A DNA stretch of 64,000 nt. It comes from Myxococcaceae bacterium (GTDB taxonomy: Bacteria > Myxococcota > Myxococcia > Myxococcales > Myxococcaceae). The stretch spans positions 1-64,000 of the forward strand of contig JAEUJQ010000042.1 in the NCBI GenBank assembly GCA_016793095.1, in the 5' to 3' direction. The stretch's first letter is position 1, and each line of letters opens with the position of its first letter. Below are positions 2,783-59,841 of the stretch, piece by piece. Under the pieces are notes generated by a model, which was not told the DNA's origin, did not search any database, and worked only from the letters and a program-made list of their open reading frames with translations. A program made the translations under genes and the position numbers.

Positions 2783-2988
2783 GCGCCGCGAGATAGCAGG
2801 CCACGGCCAGTGACGCTGCATGGGCTTGACCGCCGCGCGCGCTGCCGTTCCGCGTGCCCGGCTCGCCTGGCCACCGGAGACGACGCGAGGACGACGGAAT
2901 CGACCGCGTCAAGGCGGCCACCGGCTTGTTTCATCGACGAGCGCGCGGTCTCCTGCTGTTCGTTCGACGCGCTGTGGAGGCCGACCCG

Positions 2989-3351
2989 ATGCGCCAACCT
3001 CTGCTGAACGTGGCTCAGACGATGGACGAAGCTGGAGGCTCGCTGCTCGAGCGGGCGCTCGACCCTTCCCGCTGGGCGCTGCCGACCCGCCGGGTCAACA
3101 AGGAGAACCTGTGTCAGGTCGGGCGGGTTCAGGTCTGCGCGTCGCTCGACATCACGCCCACGCTCGACACGTTCATCCGCGTCTCGTTCCGCGGGCCTGG
3201 CCTGTCGCCGATGGAGGCCGCGGAGCTGCTCGAGCAGTTCGTCTCGAAGCGCTTCACCTACGTGCCGAACGCCGAGTGGTTCGTCGAGATCGACGCCCGC
3301 AAGTGGATTCACTTCTCCCGCAAGTACACGGAGCACCGGCTCGAGGCTTGA
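2989..3351 (+). CDS. Small conserved-looking hypothetical protein
   Basis: The 120-aa product starts at an ATG with GGAGG 8 nt upstream, which decides against the longer in-frame start at 2854. The N-terminal 40 residues are polar. The C-terminal half has an alternating pattern (VQVCASLDITP, FIRVSFRGPGLSP, WFVEIDARKWIHFSRKY) consistent with a small alpha/beta domain. There is no signal peptide, membrane segment or Cys motif. I do not recognise the family. It lies 18 nt upstream of a secreted Cys-rich protein gene in the same direction and may be co-transcribed with it. Confidence 0.7.
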   Translation: MRQPLLNVAQTMDEAGGSLLERALDPSRWALPTRRVNKENLCQVGRVQVCASLDITPTLDTFIRVSFRGPGLSPMEAAELLEQFVSKRFTYVPNAEWFVEIDARKWIHFSRKYTEHRLEA

Positions 3352-3368
3352 GGCAGACTCGGTCGCTC

Positions 3369-3644
3369 ATGAGCCGACTTCTCCTGACGCTCGCCGTCGT
3401 CTTCGCGCCGGTCGCGCTGGCCGACCTCATTCCCCCCTCGGAAGCCGAGTGCCGCCAGAAGAAGGCCGGTGACGCCTGCCGCGCCGACCTGGGCGAGGGC
3501 GTGTGTACGGCGGCGAAGTGCAGCCGCAACGACTACAGCGAGGGGCCACCGCCGAAGCAGAAGGTGGTGGACTGCCTCAAGTGCCTTCCTCCCGCCGCCG
3601 CGGACGCGGGCGTCGCCGCGAAGAAGGCGAAGGCGAAGAAGTGA
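3369..3644 (+). CDS. Small secreted Cys-rich protein, first of a tandem pair
   Basis: The 91-aa product has a clear signal peptide (MSRLLLTLAVVFAPVALA). Six Cys residues follow in the mature part, with ADLIPPSEAECRQ after cleavage and the signature NDYSEGPPPKQ near residue 60, then CLKC. The tail is Lys/Ala-rich (KKAKAKK). The next gene encodes a relative with the same order of elements (ADIPPD...C...C...LDYSEGVPPKS...C), so the two arose by duplication. Its stop overlaps the GTG of that gene (GTGA), which indicates translational coupling. Similar small secreted proteins of unknown role occur in myxobacteria; no function is assigned. Confidence 0.75.
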   Translation: MSRLLLTLAVVFAPVALADLIPPSEAECRQKKAGDACRADLGEGVCTAAKCSRNDYSEGPPPKQKVVDCLKCLPPAAADAGVAAKKAKAKK

Positions 3645-4000
3645 AGCCCACGCCCATGCCCCTGCTCATCCTGTCGCTCACCGTGGCGGCGACCGCCCTC
3701 GCCGACATTCCGCCGGACAACAGCACGCAGTGCCGCAGCGCGAGCGCCGGCGCCCCGTGCACCACCGACGACGGCAAGCCGGGCACGTGCGTCAGCCAGA
3801 AGGTGGGCCGGCTCGACTACAGCGAGGGCGTTCCACCGAAGTCGGTTCAGGTGGACATGCTCATCTGCGTGCCGTCGGTGAGCGCGAAGTCCGTCGTGCC
3901 CGCGACCACGCCGTTCCTCGCGTCTGGCCTGGTGTTGGCGGTGATGCTCGGCCTGCTGGTGATGAAGGTGGCGGGCCGACGGCGCGTGGGCGCGGCTTGA
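3641..4000 (+). CDS. Secreted/membrane-anchored Cys-rich protein, second of a tandem pair
   Basis: It starts at a GTG overlapping the previous stop (GTGA); an alternative ATG lies at 3656 and gives 114 aa. The N-terminus is a signal peptide (MPLLILSLTVAATALA). The mature part has four Cys and the shared motif LDYSEGVPPKS. Unlike its upstream paralogue it ends with a hydrophobic helix (ASGLVLAVMLGLLVMKV) and basic residues (AGRRR), which would anchor it in a membrane. The C-terminal Cys needed for a MYXO-CTERM tag is not directly before the helix. Its last codons (cgcggcttga) are themselves copied in the repeat array that follows. Confidence 0.7.
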   Translation: MKPTPMPLLILSLTVAATALADIPPDNSTQCRSASAGAPCTTDDGKPGTCVSQKVGRLDYSEGVPPKSVQVDMLICVPSVSAKSVVPATTPFLASGLVLAVMLGLLVMKVAGRRRVGAA

Positions 4001-4410
4001 GCGTCGAAGGAGGTCTGCCGACGTGCACCTGAGCACCGCCCTCCTCACTCCGGTGGACGTGCTGCGCGGCCTGAGCGTCGAAGGAGATGCGCATGAGCGG
4101 TGCCCTCCTGACTCTGGTGCACGTGCGGCGCGGGGGTGCTGCGAGGTCCCCCGACGAGTGCATGAGCCCCGCCCTCCTGACTCCGGTGGACGTGCTGCGC
4201 GGCCTGAGCGTCGGAGGAGGTCTGCCGAGGTGCGCCTGAGCACCGCCCTCCTCACTCCGGTGGACGAGCTGCGCGGGCGTGCTGCGCGGCCTGGGCGTCG
4301 AAGGAGGTGCGCATGAGCGCCGCCCTCCTGACTCCGGTGGACGTGCTGCGCGGCCTGGGCGTCGAAGGAGGTCTCCCGACGTGAGCGTGAGCGACGCGCT
4401 CCTGACTCCG
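3991..4410 (+). repeat. Tandem array of duplicated translation-start modules
   Basis: This segment consists of about six degenerate copies of a ~70-75 bp unit. A full unit runs from the stop region of the upstream gene (cgcggcttgagcgtc), through a Shine-Dalgarno (GAAGGAGG), to a start codon and roughly the first 13 codons of the downstream gene (ALLTPVDVLRG-type). SD copies lie at 4006-4013, 4080-4087 (GAAGGAGA), 4213-4220, 4300-4307 and 4364-4371. Starts follow at 4023 (GTG), 4093 (ATG), 4162 (ATG, no SD), 4230 (GTG), 4313 (ATG) and 4381 (GTG, the true gene start). The short frames overlap: the frame from 4230 ends in an ATGA overlap with 4313, and the 23-aa frame from 4313 ends in a GTGA overlap with 4381. 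Confidence 0.85.
4313..4384 (+). CDS. Putative 23-aa leader peptide coupled to the next gene
   Basis: An ATG with GAAGGAGG 5 nt upstream opens a 23-codon frame, MSAALLTPVDVLRGLGVEGG followed by LPT. Its first 15 residues repeat the N-terminus of the downstream protein (SDALLTPVDVLR). Its TGA (4382-4384) overlaps the GTG start of that gene at 4381. The arrangement suggests that ribosomes finishing the leader could restart on the main gene. Whether it is translated cannot be told from the sequence; it may be only a by-product of the tandem duplication. Confidence 0.4.
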   Translation: MSAALLTPVDVLRGLGVEGGLPT

Positions 4411-5376
4411 GTGGACGTGCTGCGCGCGGGGGTGCTGCGCGTCCTGGCGCCGTGGCTGTCGCCGCTCTACGCCGACCGGCGGCGCCGCGTGTGGTGGCTG
4501 GGCGTCTTCTCGGTCGTGAGCGCCTTCGTCGTCACGGGGCTGGTGCCGCTGTGGAGCCTCGCGCTGGGGCCGGTGCTGCTGGGCGTGCCCCACCTGGTGT
4601 CCGACGTGCGGTACCTCGTGGTGCGCCCCGGGCTGCACCTGCGCCACGCGCTCCTGGTGCTCGCGGGCGGCCCGCTGCTCGCCACCTCGTTCGGCGCGGG
4701 GCCGGTGGTGGGCCTCGCGAGCGTCGTGCCGGCCGTGCTGGTGGCGACGCCGCGCTCGTGGAAGCTCGTGCTCGCCCTCGGCGGCTGGGCTGCCCTCACC
4801 GCGGCGGCCTGGCTCGACCCCTGGGCCTTTCAGCTCGGCTTCCTGCACGCCCACAACCTCGTCGCGGTGCTGGTCTGGTGGCTGCTGTCGCCGCGCGCCG
4901 CGTCGATGGCGTGGATCCCCGCGCTCACCCTCGTGGGGGTCGCCGCCATCTTCGCCGGCGCGCTCGACCCGCTGCTCACCGTCGCGGGGGGCTGGAGCGC
5001 TCCCTGGACGGGCGCCAGCTTCACGGAGTTCGTCGAGACCATCACGCCCGCGCTGGAGCCGACCCTGGCCGCGCGGCTGGTGCTGTCGTTCTGCTTCCTG
5101 CAGTCGGTGCACTACGCGGTGTGGCTGCGGCTGGTGCCCGACGACGAGCGGCCGAGACCCGCGCCGCGGACCTTCCGCTCGACCTGGGCCGCCCTCGAGC
5201 ACGACTTCGGCCGCGGACCGCTCCTCGCCTTCGTGGCCCTCGCGCTCGGCATCGCGGGCTGGGGCCTCGTCAACCTGCCCGGCGCGCGCCTGGGCTACCT
5301 GCACCTCGCCGCCTTCCACGGCTACCTCGAGCTCGCCGTGCTCGCGCGCTGGTTCGTCCATGGGCGACGGACGTGA
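4381..5376 (+). CDS. Polytopic membrane protein resembling Brp/Blh-type carotenoid dioxygenases
   Basis: The 331-aa protein has about eight hydrophobic segments. Histidine motifs at membrane borders resemble the Brp/Blh beta-carotene 15,15'-dioxygenase pattern: GVPHLVSD (family GxPHGxxD), FLHAHNL, SFCFLQSVHY (family FCFIHS..H) and LAAFHGYLEL. Those enzymes cleave beta-carotene to retinal using His-bound iron in the membrane. The match is by motif only, and the Gly after PH is replaced, so this could instead be an uncharacterised membrane family. The GTG start with GAAGGAGG 9 nt upstream is chosen; several upstream start copies lie in the repeat array. The stop overlaps the next gene (GTGA), so the two products are probably made together. 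Confidence 0.6.
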   Translation: MSVSDALLTPVDVLRAGVLRVLAPWLSPLYADRRRRVWWLGVFSVVSAFVVTGLVPLWSLALGPVLLGVPHLVSDVRYLVVRPGLHLRHALLVLAGGPLLATSFGAGPVVGLASVVPAVLVATPRSWKLVLALGGWAALTAAAWLDPWAFQLGFLHAHNLVAVLVWWLLSPRAASMAWIPALTLVGVAAIFAGALDPLLTVAGGWSAPWTGASFTEFVETITPALEPTLAARLVLSFCFLQSVHYAVWLRLVPDDERPRPAPRTFRSTWAALEHDFGRGPLLAFVALALGIAGWGLVNLPGARLGYLHLAAFHGYLELAVLARWFVHGRRT

Positions 5377-5720
5377 GCGGTCTGCTGGAGTCCACCACCG
5401 GCGCGTGGCTGGTCGCCTACGTCTTCACGCAGGTCATCGAGGTGCCGCTCTACCTGCGCATCACCGGTGGACGGTGGGCGACCTCGCTGCTCGCGTCCAC
5501 CCTCACCCACCCCGTCGTGTGGTTCGTCTTCCCCGCGGTGTGCCCGCTGTCCTGGGGCTACTGGGGCATGGTGGCCGCCGCCGAGGCCTTCGCGGTGCTC
5601 GGCGAGACCGCCTGGCTGCGCGTGAACGGGGTGACCGGAGCGCTCAAGTGGGCCTTCGTCGTCAACGCCGCCAGCGCGGTGGGAGGCCTCCTGCTCCGCG
5701 ACACGTTCGGCGTGCCGTGA
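5373..5720 (+). CDS. Small four-helix membrane protein, coupled to upstream gene
   Basis: The 115-aa product starts at a GTG overlapping the upstream stop. It has three to four hydrophobic segments (TGAWLVAYVFTQ, LLASTLTHPVVWFVFPAV, GMVAAAEAFAVLGETAWL, WAFVVNAASAVGGLLL) and little soluble sequence. The motif QVIEVPLYLR near residue 20 recurs in small myxobacterial membrane proteins of unknown function. The 4-nt overlap argues that it acts with the preceding Brp/Blh-like protein, perhaps as a partner subunit. It ends 4 nt before the convergent stop of the nucleotide cyclase gene. Confidence 0.75.
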   Translation: MSGLLESTTGAWLVAYVFTQVIEVPLYLRITGGRWATSLLASTLTHPVVWFVFPAVCPLSWGYWGMVAAAEAFAVLGETAWLRVNGVTGALKWAFVVNAASAVGGLLLRDTFGVP

Positions 5721-38037: not shown

Positions 38038-41000
38038 TCAGCTCGAGGGTGGCCCCGCGCCGCTCGACGTGCGTGAACGGCGAGCCATCACGAGGAGCGC
38101 GAGGACCAGCCAGAGCGGGTCGCCGCTCGGGGCGTTGCACTGACAGCCCACCGTGGTGACGGGACCCGGCTCGCCCCCCGCGGAGCCGCCTGCCGCTGAG
38201 CCGCCTGCCGCTGAGCCGCCCGCTGCAGAACCGCCCGCCGCTGAACCGCCCGCCGCAGAACCGCCCGCTGCAGAACCGCCCGCTGCAGAGCCGCCCGCTG
38301 CTGAGCCACCCGCTGAACCGCCCGCAGAACCGCCCGCCGCAGAGCCACCCGACGCTGAGCCACCTGCGGCCGAGCCGCCTGCCGCTGAACCGCCCGCCGC
38401 TGAGCCACCTGCCGCTGAACCGCCCGCAGAGCCGCCTGCAGCCGCAGAGCCACCTGCCGCTGAACCCCCCGCTGCCGAGCCACCCGCCGCGGAGCCACCT
38501 GCCGCAGAACCGCCCGCAGAGCCGCCTGCCGCTGAACCGCCCGCCGCCGTGCCACCTGCCGCTGAACCCCCCGCTGCCGAGCCACCCGCCGCGGAGCCAC
38601 CTGCCGCTGAACCGCCCGCCGCAGAACCGCCCGCCGCTGAGCCACCTGCCGCAGAACCGCCCGCCGCTGAGCCACCCGCCGCCGAGCCACCCGCCACAGA
38701 CCCGCCCGCCGCAGAACCGCCTGCCGCTGACCCGCCCGCCGCTGAGCCACCTGCCGCTGAACCGCCCGCCGCAGACCCGCCCGCCGCTGTGCCACCCGCC
38801 GAGCCACCTGCCGCCAAGCCACCCGCCGCTGAACCGCCCGCTGCCGAGCCACCCGCTGCCGAGCCACCCGCTGCCGAGCCACCCGCTGCCGAGCCACCCG
38901 CCGACCCGCCCGCTGCTGAGCCACCCGCTGCCGAGCCGCCCGCCGCAGAACCGCCCGCCGCAGTGCCACCTGCAGCCGTGCCACCTGCGGCCGTGCCACC
39001 GGCGGACCCGCCACCTGCAGCACCACCAGCTGAACCACCAGCTGCTGAACCGCCCGCCGCACTGCCACCCGCGGCACCACCACCTGCGGAGCCGCCCCCC
39101 GCCGCGCCGCCTCCCGCGCCTGCATCCGGCGCCGGATCGTCGTTCGTGATCGTGCCCACGCCTTGCGAGTCGATGAAGCTCGAACCTGCCGAGGCGCCAG
39201 ACAGGTTCACCAGCACCGTCTCGTTGCCCTCGAAGGTGGTGTCCCCGAGGACGTTCACCGTCACCGTGCGCGAGACCTGGTCCGGCAGGAACAAGACCGT
39301 GCCTCCAGCCGAGTTGTAGTCACTGCCGCTCGTCGCGGTGCCGTTCGCCGTGACCCAGCTCGCCGACACGTTCGCGCCACAGGCGTGATTCAGCGTCACC
39401 GTGAAGACGAGCTGCGTCGTGCCGGTGTCGCCCTCCGACACCGTCGCGTCGGAGATCGAGATGCCCGGGTTCTCCTGGTAGCCACAGCCGCAGACGCCGG
39501 GCGCCGTCTTCGCCGGGTCCGCCGGACAGAGATCGCACGTCACCGGGTCCACCACCGAGGGCGCGACGCCTCCGGGCTCCGTCGTCGCGAGCAGCTTGAG
39601 CACCTTCGTCGGCGCGTCCTGCTGCGCCACCACCACCACGCCGCCGTCCCCCATCACCGCGAGCGTCGCGAACAGCCCGGTGTCCTTCTGCGTGTCCACC
39701 GAGCGCACGTCCCACCGGGGCGCCAGCACGCCCGCGTCCGCGTCGAACCGCTGCGGCAGCCGCCTCGCGTGCTCGAGCGAGCCAAGGAACGCGAAGGCCA
39801 CCTCGGGCTCGCCCCCTGGGCTCCACGCCACGTCCGCGCTCGCCATCGCAGTCTGGCCGAACGGGTTCCCCAGCGTCACCGGCGGCTGCCAGACACCGCT
39901 CACGCGCTCGACGAACGACACCGAGCCGGTCGTGCCCACCGTCCCACGGAAGAGCACCCCGAGATCGCCGTTCGGTCGACGGGCCATCGCCACCTGCACC
40001 GCTCCGCCGAAGGCGGTCACCAGGCCGCCCGGCAGCGGCACGGGCTGCGCGATGAACGTGCCGGACGCATTCGTCGCGAGCAGCAGGTCTCCCGTCGCGT
40101 TCGTGGCCGAGAGTGCGCTCGCGCCAGACGTGCGCGTGAACACCACCTCGGCCGCACCGGCTGGGGTGAAGGCGAAGTCGAAGGACGGTGGCAGGTAGTT
40201 CGCCCCGCAGGTGTTCGCCGCCACGAGCGAGGGCGTCCACGAGCCGTTCGCCTGCTCCTGGTAGAGCGTGAGGGAGTCGGCCGCCGAGCCGCCGCACCCC
40301 GTCGCCGCCCGCTGCCACACCACCACCGCCGGCCGCCCCGACACCGGGTCGAACGCCAGGCGGAACGAGAGCGGCGCCGTCGAGGGCGCCTGGGTGATGG
40401 GCGCCAGCGAGCAGCCGGTCCACAGGTTCGACGCGCACCCGGTGGCGCACGCGTCGCCCGTTCTCCGCGCGAGCCGCACCTCGATGTTCCCCACCCGCGC
40501 CTGCGGGTAGACGATGGCCACCTGGCCCGTGCGCGGCTCGACGCCGACGTCGATGAGGCGGGTCGCCACGTTGCCTGCGACCCCCGCTGGCAGCCCGAGC
40601 GCTCCCTGCACCACCTCGCCACGCCAGGTGCCGTCGGCGTTGCGCGCGCGGAAGACGGCGGTGTTCGCGGTGGTGTCGAGGAACGCCACCACCGGCCCGC
40701 CGTCGGGGCCGCCGCGCAGCGCCAGCGCGACCGACGACGGCTGCGTCGGCGCCGCCACCTGCTCGCGGACGGGCCAGCGCCGTCGCGCCGCCGTGGCCAG
40801 CGGATCGAACTCGTACGCGCCGAGGTCGGGCACGACGTCACGCGGCTGGCGCAGGAGGTCCCCGGTCTCGGTCGAGCCCACGCCAGCGTCGATGGCCGGA
40901 GAGCCCGCCGCGAGCCGCCAGTCCTCCGGGCCGAGGAAGCGCGGGTCGCCCGTCGCATCGGTCACCGGCACGCCTGCGTCGCCGGCCCCGCCGAACGCCG

Positions 41001-54831: not shown

Positions 54832-55457
54832 CGCAGGGCGCCCGAGACGGCTCCGTCACGCGCACGGCTTCACCGGCGACTGAAGCGCCGGCCAGAGGAC
54901 CTGACGCTCCCAGCGCCGGACGAGCGAGGAGAGTTCACCGCGGGCGCGGTCGGCACGGTCGACGGCTCCATCGGCGGTGTGGTGGTGTCGCGGCGCGACC
55001 TGCGCGACGGCGACACGTTCCGCGCGTACCACGACGGCTCGGATCGCGACGAGGCGCGCATCGCGCATGAAGCAGGTGGGTCCCACCCCGTCGCGGCCGC
55101 GGGGGCCGCCGGGGAGGGGCACCGCGCCGCTCGGCGAGGACGAAGGAGCTCGAGCCGCCAGGGAAGCGGAACCGAGGGCGCAGCTGGAGCGGCACCACCC
55201 GGCAGAGGGACTGACGTGCCGGCTCGGTCGAGCTGCCGCAAGAGGCGTTCCTCGCGGTGCTGAAGTCGGAGAACGCGCCCGTGCGAGGTCGATTGGGTGC
55301 GTGGCTCAGGGCTCGAGCCACGCGCGCAGCGGGTTCACCGTCGGACGAATCTGCTGCCGGACCATGAGGTCCGGGTTGCCGGTGAGGGAGCGCTCGCGCC
55401 CCAGCCCGCCCTTCGCGTCGAGCGCGCCCGTGCGAGGTCGATCGGGTGTGCGTGGGC
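54832..55457. other. 626-bp intergenic region with coding relics and a duplicated gene end
   Basis: The left part (about 54895-55070) reads on the plus strand as an unexpectedly protein-like stretch (LTLPAPDERGEFTAGAVG, then VDGSIGGVVVSRRDLRDGD) with no start and an early loss of quality, so it may be a decayed gene fragment. The right part (about 55275-55456) belongs to the duplicated 3' end described separately. No RNA gene or intact reading frame was found. Confidence 0.45.
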
Positions 55458-55575
55458 TCAGGGCTCGAGCCACGCGCGCAGCGGGTTCACCGTCGGGCGA
55501 ATCTCCTGCCGGACCATGAGGTCCGGGTTGCCGCTGAGGGAGAGCTCGCGCCCCAGCCCGCCCTTCGCGTCGAGC
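55275..55575 (-). repeat. Two-copy tandem duplication of the 3' end of the HD-GYP-like gene
   Basis: Copy B (55424-55575) is the true 3' end of the gene, and copy A (55275-55423) lies immediately downstream with a period of ~150 bp. Both encode the same last ~38 codons ending in RPTVNPLRAWLEP and a TGA (55306-55308 in A, 55458-55460 in B). They also share a following 30-bp leader (gcgcccgtgcgaggtcgat). About ten substitutions separate them (for example QEIRPT versus QQIRPT). Copy A has no start and is downstream of the stop, so it is not translated. Confidence 0.85.
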
Positions 55576-56330
55576 GGGCGGACCCTGGGCTGCGCGACGT
55601 TCGCGTCCGACGGTGGGGCGACCACGACGGCCATCGACCCATCGGACAGCTGCACCGAGGTGCCGGGCGGGAAGAAGCCCAGCGTGCGGACGAACAGCTC
55701 GACCGCCGTGCTGTCGAGGCGCTGCCCGGCGAGCTGTCCGAGCAGGCGCATGACGTGGTCGCTGCCCACGGGTGGGCGGTTCGGGCCCGGCTGCGTCAAC
55801 AGCTCGAAGATCGACGGCGGCGCGATGAGGCGTGCGGTGGCGCGCGGGTTGGTGGACAGCGGCAACGCCCACTCGAGGGCGACCGAGGTCTGGTGGCACA
55901 CCTCGTCCGTCAGCACGTCGGCGCTGCACCTCAGCGCGCTGCGCAGGCCCAGGTGCCCGGGCGGCTCCAGCTCGGGCGGCACCCGCGACAGGTCGTGCAC
56001 CAGGGCCGCCATGCACAGCTCGACGGTGTCGGCGGGCGACAGCAGCATCTGCCGCGTCAGCACCAGCGTGAAGGCGGCCACCGCCGAGAGCCGCTGCGCC
56101 AGGCCGTCGGGGCCCCGGGGAAGCCGGCCGAGGGCGACCAGCAGCCACTCCTTGTCGAAGGCCTCCTCGAAGACGTTCTGCATCGCCCGACGCAGGAGGC
56201 TCGTGCGCCATGGCTGCTTCTGCGCCAGGCGGCCGAGCGCGTCGCCCATCACCGTCACCAGGCCCACGTAGGCGCGGACCAGCCGCAGGTTCGCCTCTCG
56301 CTGCGCGCGCTGTTCGTCGCTCAGGCTCAT
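55458..56330 (-). CDS. Degenerate HD-GYP-like protein
   Basis: The 290-aa soluble protein has the layout of an HD-GYP output domain, whose active forms hydrolyse cyclic di-GMP. The HD pair is kept in MAALVHDLSRVPPE, and the C-terminal part (LDSTAVELFVRTLGFFPPGT, VQLSDGSMAVVVAPP) matches the end of such domains. However, the GYP signature and several metal-binding His residues are not visible (RCSADVLTDEVCHQTSVALE in that place), so it is probably catalytically dead and acts as a binding or scaffold protein. The ATG overlaps the stop of the HEAT-repeat gene (ATGA), so they work together. Confidence 0.75.
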   Translation of the reverse strand: MSLSDEQRAQREANLRLVRAYVGLVTVMGDALGRLAQKQPWRTSLLRRAMQNVFEEAFDKEWLLVALGRLPRGPDGLAQRLSAVAAFTLVLTRQMLLSPADTVELCMAALVHDLSRVPPELEPPGHLGLRSALRCSADVLTDEVCHQTSVALEWALPLSTNPRATARLIAPPSIFELLTQPGPNRPPVGSDHVMRLLGQLAGQRLDSTAVELFVRTLGFFPPGTSVQLSDGSMAVVVAPPSDANVAQPRVRPLDAKGGLGRELSLSGNPDLMVRQEIRPTVNPLRAWLEP

Positions 56331-59439: not shown

Positions 59440-59841
59440 GGAAGCGCGGCGAGGCGACGCGCCCAACGACCGACGACGCAGCGCGAGGGAGTCCGAGACG
59501 TCGGGCGGCGAGGCGACGCGCCCGACGACCGACGACGCAGCGCCAGGGAGTCCGAGACGTCGGGCGGCGACGCGAGGCTCAGCGGCCCGACGACCGACGA
59601 CGCAGCGTCCGAGACGTCGGGCGGCGAGGCGACGTGAGGCTCAGCGGCCCGACGACCGACGACGCAGCGCCAGGGAGTCCGAGACGGGGGCGAGGCGACG
59701 TGAGGCTCAGCGGCCCGACGACCGACGACGCAGCGCCAGGGAGTCCGAGACGGGGGCGACGTGAGGCTCAGCGGCAGCGCCAGGGAGTCCGAGACGGCGG
59801 CGAGGCGACGTGAGGCTCAGCGGCCCGACGACCGACGACGC
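59440..59841 (-). repeat. ~65-bp tandem repeats of a gene's 3' end and terminator region
   Basis: About six and a half copies of a ~60-66 bp unit containing cccgacgaccgacgacgca, then agggagtccgagacg, then ggcgaggcgacgtgaggctcag. The rightmost copy (59817-59841) is the true 3' end of the MYXO-CTERM gene (RRSSGR and TGA), so the other copies lie downstream of that gene. Unit lengths vary by internal deletions, and one copy near 59770 lacks the gene-end core. Some units can form a stem (gtcgggcg at 59500-59507 with cgcccgac at 59519-59526). Confidence 0.85.

Follow-up and report, generated by a model that had tools for sequence, protein, structure and literature searches.

It has been reported that reinitiation needs overlaps or very short gaps and falls steeply with distance, about 20 nucleotides (nt) nearly abolishing it, and that the 4-nt overlap is among the commonest gene spacings (PMC10666635). 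In Mycobacterium tuberculosis, mycobacterial interspersed repetitive units (MIRUs) are described as inserting at start codons, where an internal frame becomes coupled to the gene through a 4-nt overlap while the gene's expression changes little (PMC12548453); the units at senX3-regX3 measure 77 and 53 bp (PMC4213456), and by our arithmetic both lengths are 2 mod 3, the phase needed for 4-nt overlaps to form a chain. MIRUs are the closest known kind to the element considered here, a degenerate tandem array between two operon genes, called gene A and gene B, but this array is locally derived. It lies in a 64,000-nt stretch of Myxococcaceae DNA, the whole of which is called the window (on contig C14; the genome measures 8.8 Mb, and its nearest named relatives are Archangiaceae/Myxococcaceae metagenome-assembled genomes), and it fills the 380 nt between the gene A stop and the gene B start (GTG 4381) with tandem copies of the junction. 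In this and seven other junction arrays of the same genome, the spacing next to the real gene has the one phase that keeps copied stops and starts linked, which suggests that the cell needs ribosomes passed from gene to gene.

Like MIRUs, the gene A/gene B array lies between operon genes and possesses a frame overlapping its neighbour by 4 nt, a MIRU criterion represented here by GTGA at 4381, ATGA at 4313 and TTGA at 3997. However, MIRUs form a dispersed, apparently mobile family, whereas here the unit derives from the junction and is found at no other place in the genome, the unit differs from array to array, and the host is a myxobacterium, not a mycobacterium. Searching the array sequence against its whole own genome returned nothing beyond two 25-nt chance matches; the present arrays would operate in a similar way to MIRUs but, since the unit is local and unique, are not MIRUs. 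Termination-reinitiation coupling at ATGA or GTGA is likewise a related system, the ancestral and neighbouring operon junctions being of the same type (GTGA in three same-genus relatives), but such pairs usually make one handoff between two genes, whereas a chain of handoffs through filler frames of up to 97 codons is predicted here. Coupled leader open reading frames (upstream frames, and the leaders of bicistronic designs) similarly use a short frame only to deliver the ribosome to the next start (PMC12548453); here there are several in series, made by duplicating the gene's own junction. Bacterial minisatellites (variable-number tandem repeats, VNTRs) also consist of degenerate tandem copies and are numerous in the source genome, but the arrays that copy a coupled start are phase-restricted and the others are not. 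A literature search found no description of phase-restricted gene-junction duplication, which is not proof of absence.

When a coupled junction is duplicated, its frames stay linked if the stop offset plus the period equals 0 mod 3, which is one of three phases. The junction tests covered 2.32 Mb of the source genome, in which a dicodon model called 2017 genes (90% coding). Each gene start was compared with its upstream sequence for similarity, frame ignored, at a score threshold of 40, which 0 of 1895 reached in a shuffled null, and coding repeats, paralogues and divergent neighbours were set aside. This left eight arrays at junctions of same-strand genes in which the downstream start is duplicated, given here with the last spacing and the residue modulo 3 that the rule needs:
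C14, gene A/gene B junction; last spacing 74, needs 2.
C9 (L042:4713-5076), glycosyltransferase/lpxK junction, 122 bp x 4; last spacing 122, needs 2.
C48 (L173:2967-3461), PALP/GMC-oxidoreductase junction, 7 copies; last spacing 95, needs 2.
C4 (L120:18136-18566), junction before an FAD amine-oxidase-like gene, 7 copies; last spacing 68, needs 2.
C36, junction of a chlorophyllase-like gene and a gene of unknown function, 2 copies, 14-nt overlap; last spacing 67, needs 1.
C19:30311, junction of a DUF1385 gene and a gene of unknown function, 2 copies, the start lying 12 nt downstream of the stop; last spacing 99, needs 0.
C19:167474, junction before a HopA1-domain gene, several copies; last spacing 98, needs 2.
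C20:16257, 2 copies, recovered by the upstream-end scan, its score in the start scan being 38; last spacing 74, needs 2.

In 8/8 arrays the spacing that adjoins the real gene has the relay phase (chance p = 1.5e-4), and the 30 adjacent spacings as a whole divide into 22 with the relay phase, 4 with in-frame pass-through and 4 with neither. A complete chain from the upstream stop, with handoffs of at most 14 nt, runs through seven of the eight; when all periods of those seven were shifted by +1 or +2, the chain was destroyed (kept in at most 2% of runs) in 10 of 14 shifts. Long relay-type arrays with 4 to 7 copies and unbroken overlap chains stand before the GMC oxidoreductase, the FAD amine-oxidase-like gene and lpxK. 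Single random indels were also tried as a null for the chain; the chain survives them in at least half of the runs for most arrays, so its mere presence is a weak sign, and the test was based on phase. The control set, 18 convergent-type duplications of 3' ends in the same genome, has periods distributed 5/5/8 modulo 3, with no phase bias.

These counts bear directly on a neutral account, in which the array would be a decaying tandem duplication in a minisatellite-rich genome, the interlock of frames would come only from the period and from TAA and TAG stops being scarce, and the Shine-Dalgarno (SD) sequence of the last copy would drive gene B independently. The genome does hold 67 mostly non-coding tandem arrays in the 2.32 Mb, and we regard this account as a real but clearly lesser possibility; it predicts random phase, whereas the junction arrays are uniformly in relay phase and the 3'-end arrays are unbiased.

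Several further matches were considered as start-copying operon junctions and rejected: C44, C13 and C92 are in-frame coding repeats or spurious calls, C48:15372 consists of spurious overlapping calls, C8 of tandem paralogous genes, and C1 and C43:100732 have a divergent upstream gene, with no relay at C1. The same-strand arrays C10, C46, C92 and C43:58075 copy only the upstream 3' end, and because they contain no downstream start the phase rule is not applicable to them.

The junction before lpxK offers a second view of the same restriction. Four congeneric species (G006, G001, G003 and G005; L175, L176, L177 and L178) are without the C9 array and carry instead a spacer between the glycosyltransferase gene and lpxK, of 133, 643, 220 or 181 nt, giving start-to-start distances of 134, 644, 221 and 182 nt, all 2 mod 3. 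Each spacer is one open frame with a 4-nt overlap both with the glycosyltransferase stop and with the lpxK start. The spacers are non-homologous except those of G003 and G005, the one in G001 itself holds repeated sequence from the upstream end (local score 80), and their frames look non-coding, scoring -0.4 to -1.1 per codon versus +0.35 to +0.55 for the gene. Since these spacers are in phase while mostly unrelated and non-coding-like, the frame link has been kept even though the sequence could change freely, which also argues against the neutral account. In more distant relatives the two genes overlap directly or are separated by short gaps.

At the gene A/gene B locus, the array comprises five degenerate copies plus the true start, with a unit of about 74 bp that contains the stop region, an SD, a start and the first 15-20 codons of gene B; distances between homologous start positions of the copies are 64, 69, 74, 77 and 74 nt. 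The repeat families D1-D9 and the arrays reported by Tandem Repeats Finder (TRF) map to 4030-4447, which bears out the six or so tandem junction copies described in a first-pass annotation of this DNA, and its positions for SDs and frames all proved correct on re-reading of the sequence. The modules, with their SD-like sites, and the frames of the chain are:
3998..4070, + strand, module 1: the real stop of gene A, SD GAAGGAGG at 4006-4013 and GTG 4023.
4071..4135, + strand, module 2: weak SD GAAGGAGA at 4080-4087 and ATG 4093, whose frame (4093-4239) is off the main chain.
4136..4203, + strand, module 3: SD lost; ATG 4162 is in frame with 4093 and lies inside the 4093-4239 frame.
4204..4290, + strand, module 4: SD GGAGGAGG at 4213-4220 and GTG 4230.
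4291..4354, + strand, module 5: SD GAAGGAGG at 4300-4307 and ATG 4313.
4355..4447, + strand, module 6: SD GAAGGAGG at 4364-4371, the true start GTG 4381 and the first codons of gene B.
3997..4032, + strand, relay frame 0: 11 codons from a TTG that overlaps the gene A stop (TTGA; GTGA in relatives).
4023..4316, + strand, relay frame 1: 97 codons from GTG 4023, with GTG 4230 in frame, ending in ATGA at 4313-4316 (TGA 4314-4316).
4313..4384, + strand, relay frame 2: 23 codons from ATG 4313, ending in GTGA at 4381-4384 (TGA 4382-4384).

The frames thus interlock as first described, the one from 4023 containing that from 4230 and ending at ATGA 4313, and the one from 4313 ending at GTGA 4381. In addition, the TTG 3997 frame overlaps the gene A stop and terminates 7 nt beyond GTG 4023, so that the chain begins at gene A itself, and every handoff of the chain within the window is at most 7 nt. 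This interlock is nevertheless not beyond chance: when a GTGA junction is copied at a period of 2 mod 3, each copied frame ends at the next GTGA automatically, so the arrangement is expected from geometry and the locus alone proves nothing. The first-pass annotation had also held that the SDs were kept while the copies diverged, a claim that fails, since copy 3 no longer has an SD and the SD columns show no special conservation (mean pairwise identity 0.80, with 60% of 8-column windows equally or more conserved); SD conservation among the copies was accordingly dropped as a sign of selection, there being no excess over the rest of the unit. Simulated neutral decay (substitutions plus indels) at this period leaves the chain in 75-96% of runs, and with SDs not preferentially conserved the reasons first given for a function do not by themselves show one. 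The module-to-module handoff of ribosomes proposed there has lost this SD argument and is favoured instead by the phase of the seven other arrays and by the lpxK spacer frames. The simulated decay, the lack of SD conservation, the lost SD of one copy and the strong SD of the true start at 4364 all speak for the neutral account.

The same SD data weigh on a further explanation, that the copies mainly serve as reserve ribosome-binding sites loading extra 30S subunits for gene B, in line with the module view of the first-pass annotation. Four strong SDs remain, one of them near the true start, and GGAG or GGAGG also occurs in each unit of other arrays; against this stand the ordinary conservation of the SD columns, the loss in copy 3 and the C19:30311 units, which have no obvious SD yet are in relay phase, and we consider the explanation very improbable. 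A handoff at the gene A/gene B junction would rest mainly on the stop/start overlap. That the filler frames encode real small proteins seems less credible still: there are open frames of 11, 97 and 23 codons, but relatives have no such frames at this junction, the filler peptides are copies of the gene B N terminus or its out-of-frame translations, and the lpxK spacer frames score non-coding and vary between species.

Relatives also indicate the ancestral state. In the same-genus relatives G001, G003 and G006, the gene A stop and gene B start overlap directly as GTGA (GCGTGAGC), with neither array nor spacer at the junction; in further relatives the two reading frames overlap or lie close together, again with no array. 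Because these relatives have the direct GTGA overlap and no array, the array is lineage-specific and arose when a junction with translational coupling was duplicated in tandem; the ancestral GTG persists as TTG 3997. Similarly, orthologues of the C48 and C36 junctions show direct overlap and no array.

The explanation that we favour, and hold to be probable, is that a coupled GTGA junction was tandemly duplicated and then decayed under a filter of selection for termination-reinitiation. Local tandem duplication of a junction in which the upstream stop overlaps the downstream start (GTGA) would be tolerated only at periods that leave each duplicated downstream start sharing a frame with the stop of the following copy. 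In a right-phase duplication, a chain of filler frames would result, and a ribosome would terminate at one junction, reinitiate, read a short filler frame, stop at the next junction and eventually reach the real gene; a wrong-phase duplication would leave a long untranslated stretch, or ribosomes crossing the downstream start out of frame. Selection against wrong-phase duplications is the simplest account of the phase bias. We infer that ribosomes travel along the chain and that the other phases were removed by selection, either in favour of coupling or against an untranslated gap exposed to polarity; the benefit may lie in coupling itself or in protection from polarity.

A number of points weigh against this explanation. 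The sample is small, eight arrays curated by hand from about 25 matches, and the phase rule grew out of the first two or three cases; the six remaining arrays, without C14 and C9, give p = 1.4e-3. Under a looser chain definition and random phase the product is 0.0055, or 0.011 without the gene A/gene B locus. Among all same-strand gaps of 30-700 nt, strict chains number 24 versus 13.8 by shuffle, a modest excess, with phases of 24/15/14. C20 fits the phase rule, although GTA now stands in place of the first copied start and the gene called downstream is short. At the gene A/gene B locus, the first step of the chain requires either TTG as a start or a strong SD across a 25-nt gap, and there is no chain with ATG and GTG starts only and handoffs of at most 14 nt.

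It is still argued how far operons in nature rely on stop-start handoff and how far on independent initiation. A junction duplicated in tandem amounts to a frameshift experiment made by nature; should just one phase of the three survive, the genome records a need for handoff. The phase rule is simple and countable in all genomes, and it extends the mechanism proposed for MIRUs to locally made repeats. More speculatively, and with the odds well against it, phase-filtered junction duplication might be a general bacterial route to multi-step translational relays, in which the number of copies might tune the stoichiometry of neighbouring genes like a rheostat, as each handoff loses some ribosomes, a MIRU-like VNTR control without a mobile element.

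The array is part of a compact operon at 2974-5720, in which stop and start overlap directly by 4 nt at two junctions, 3641 and 5373, both GTGA. The genes concerned are:
3641..4000, + strand, upstream gene A: a small secreted or membrane-anchored protein with no Pfam family; its start GTG 3641 overlaps the preceding gene's stop, and its own stop is TGA 3998-4000.
4381..5376, + strand, gene B: a conserved polytopic membrane-like protein of 331 aa (331 codons from GTG 4381).
5373..5720, + strand, next operon gene: its start GTG overlaps the gene B stop.
The overlap at 5373 means that the operon is otherwise tightly coupled. The gene B start at 4381 is backed by orthologues that begin VSV or VSL at the same place. 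Gene B had been called Brp/Blh-like, after the beta-carotene dioxygenases, an identification that finds no support: neither its protein nor 11 relatives have a Pfam or NCBIfam match, and the protein has no PDB fold match. The protein is conserved, helical and membrane-like, H71, H158, H244 and H313 are invariant in it, and these histidines and the many helices are only suggestive of Brp/Blh identity.

The source genome is rich in degenerate extragenic tandem arrays, the 67 counted above having periods of at least 24. Many extragenic arrays derive from a gene's own 3' end, for instance 152 bp x 2 at 55274 (55274-55609) and about 63 bp x 5 at 59446 (59446-59839) in the window. On the relatives' contigs tandem arrays are fewer and shorter. 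Elsewhere in the window, at 38172-38961, a 15-nt unit (CGCCCGCCGCTGAGC) is repeated in tandem about 54 times and probably encodes a Gly/Ala/Ser-rich linker.
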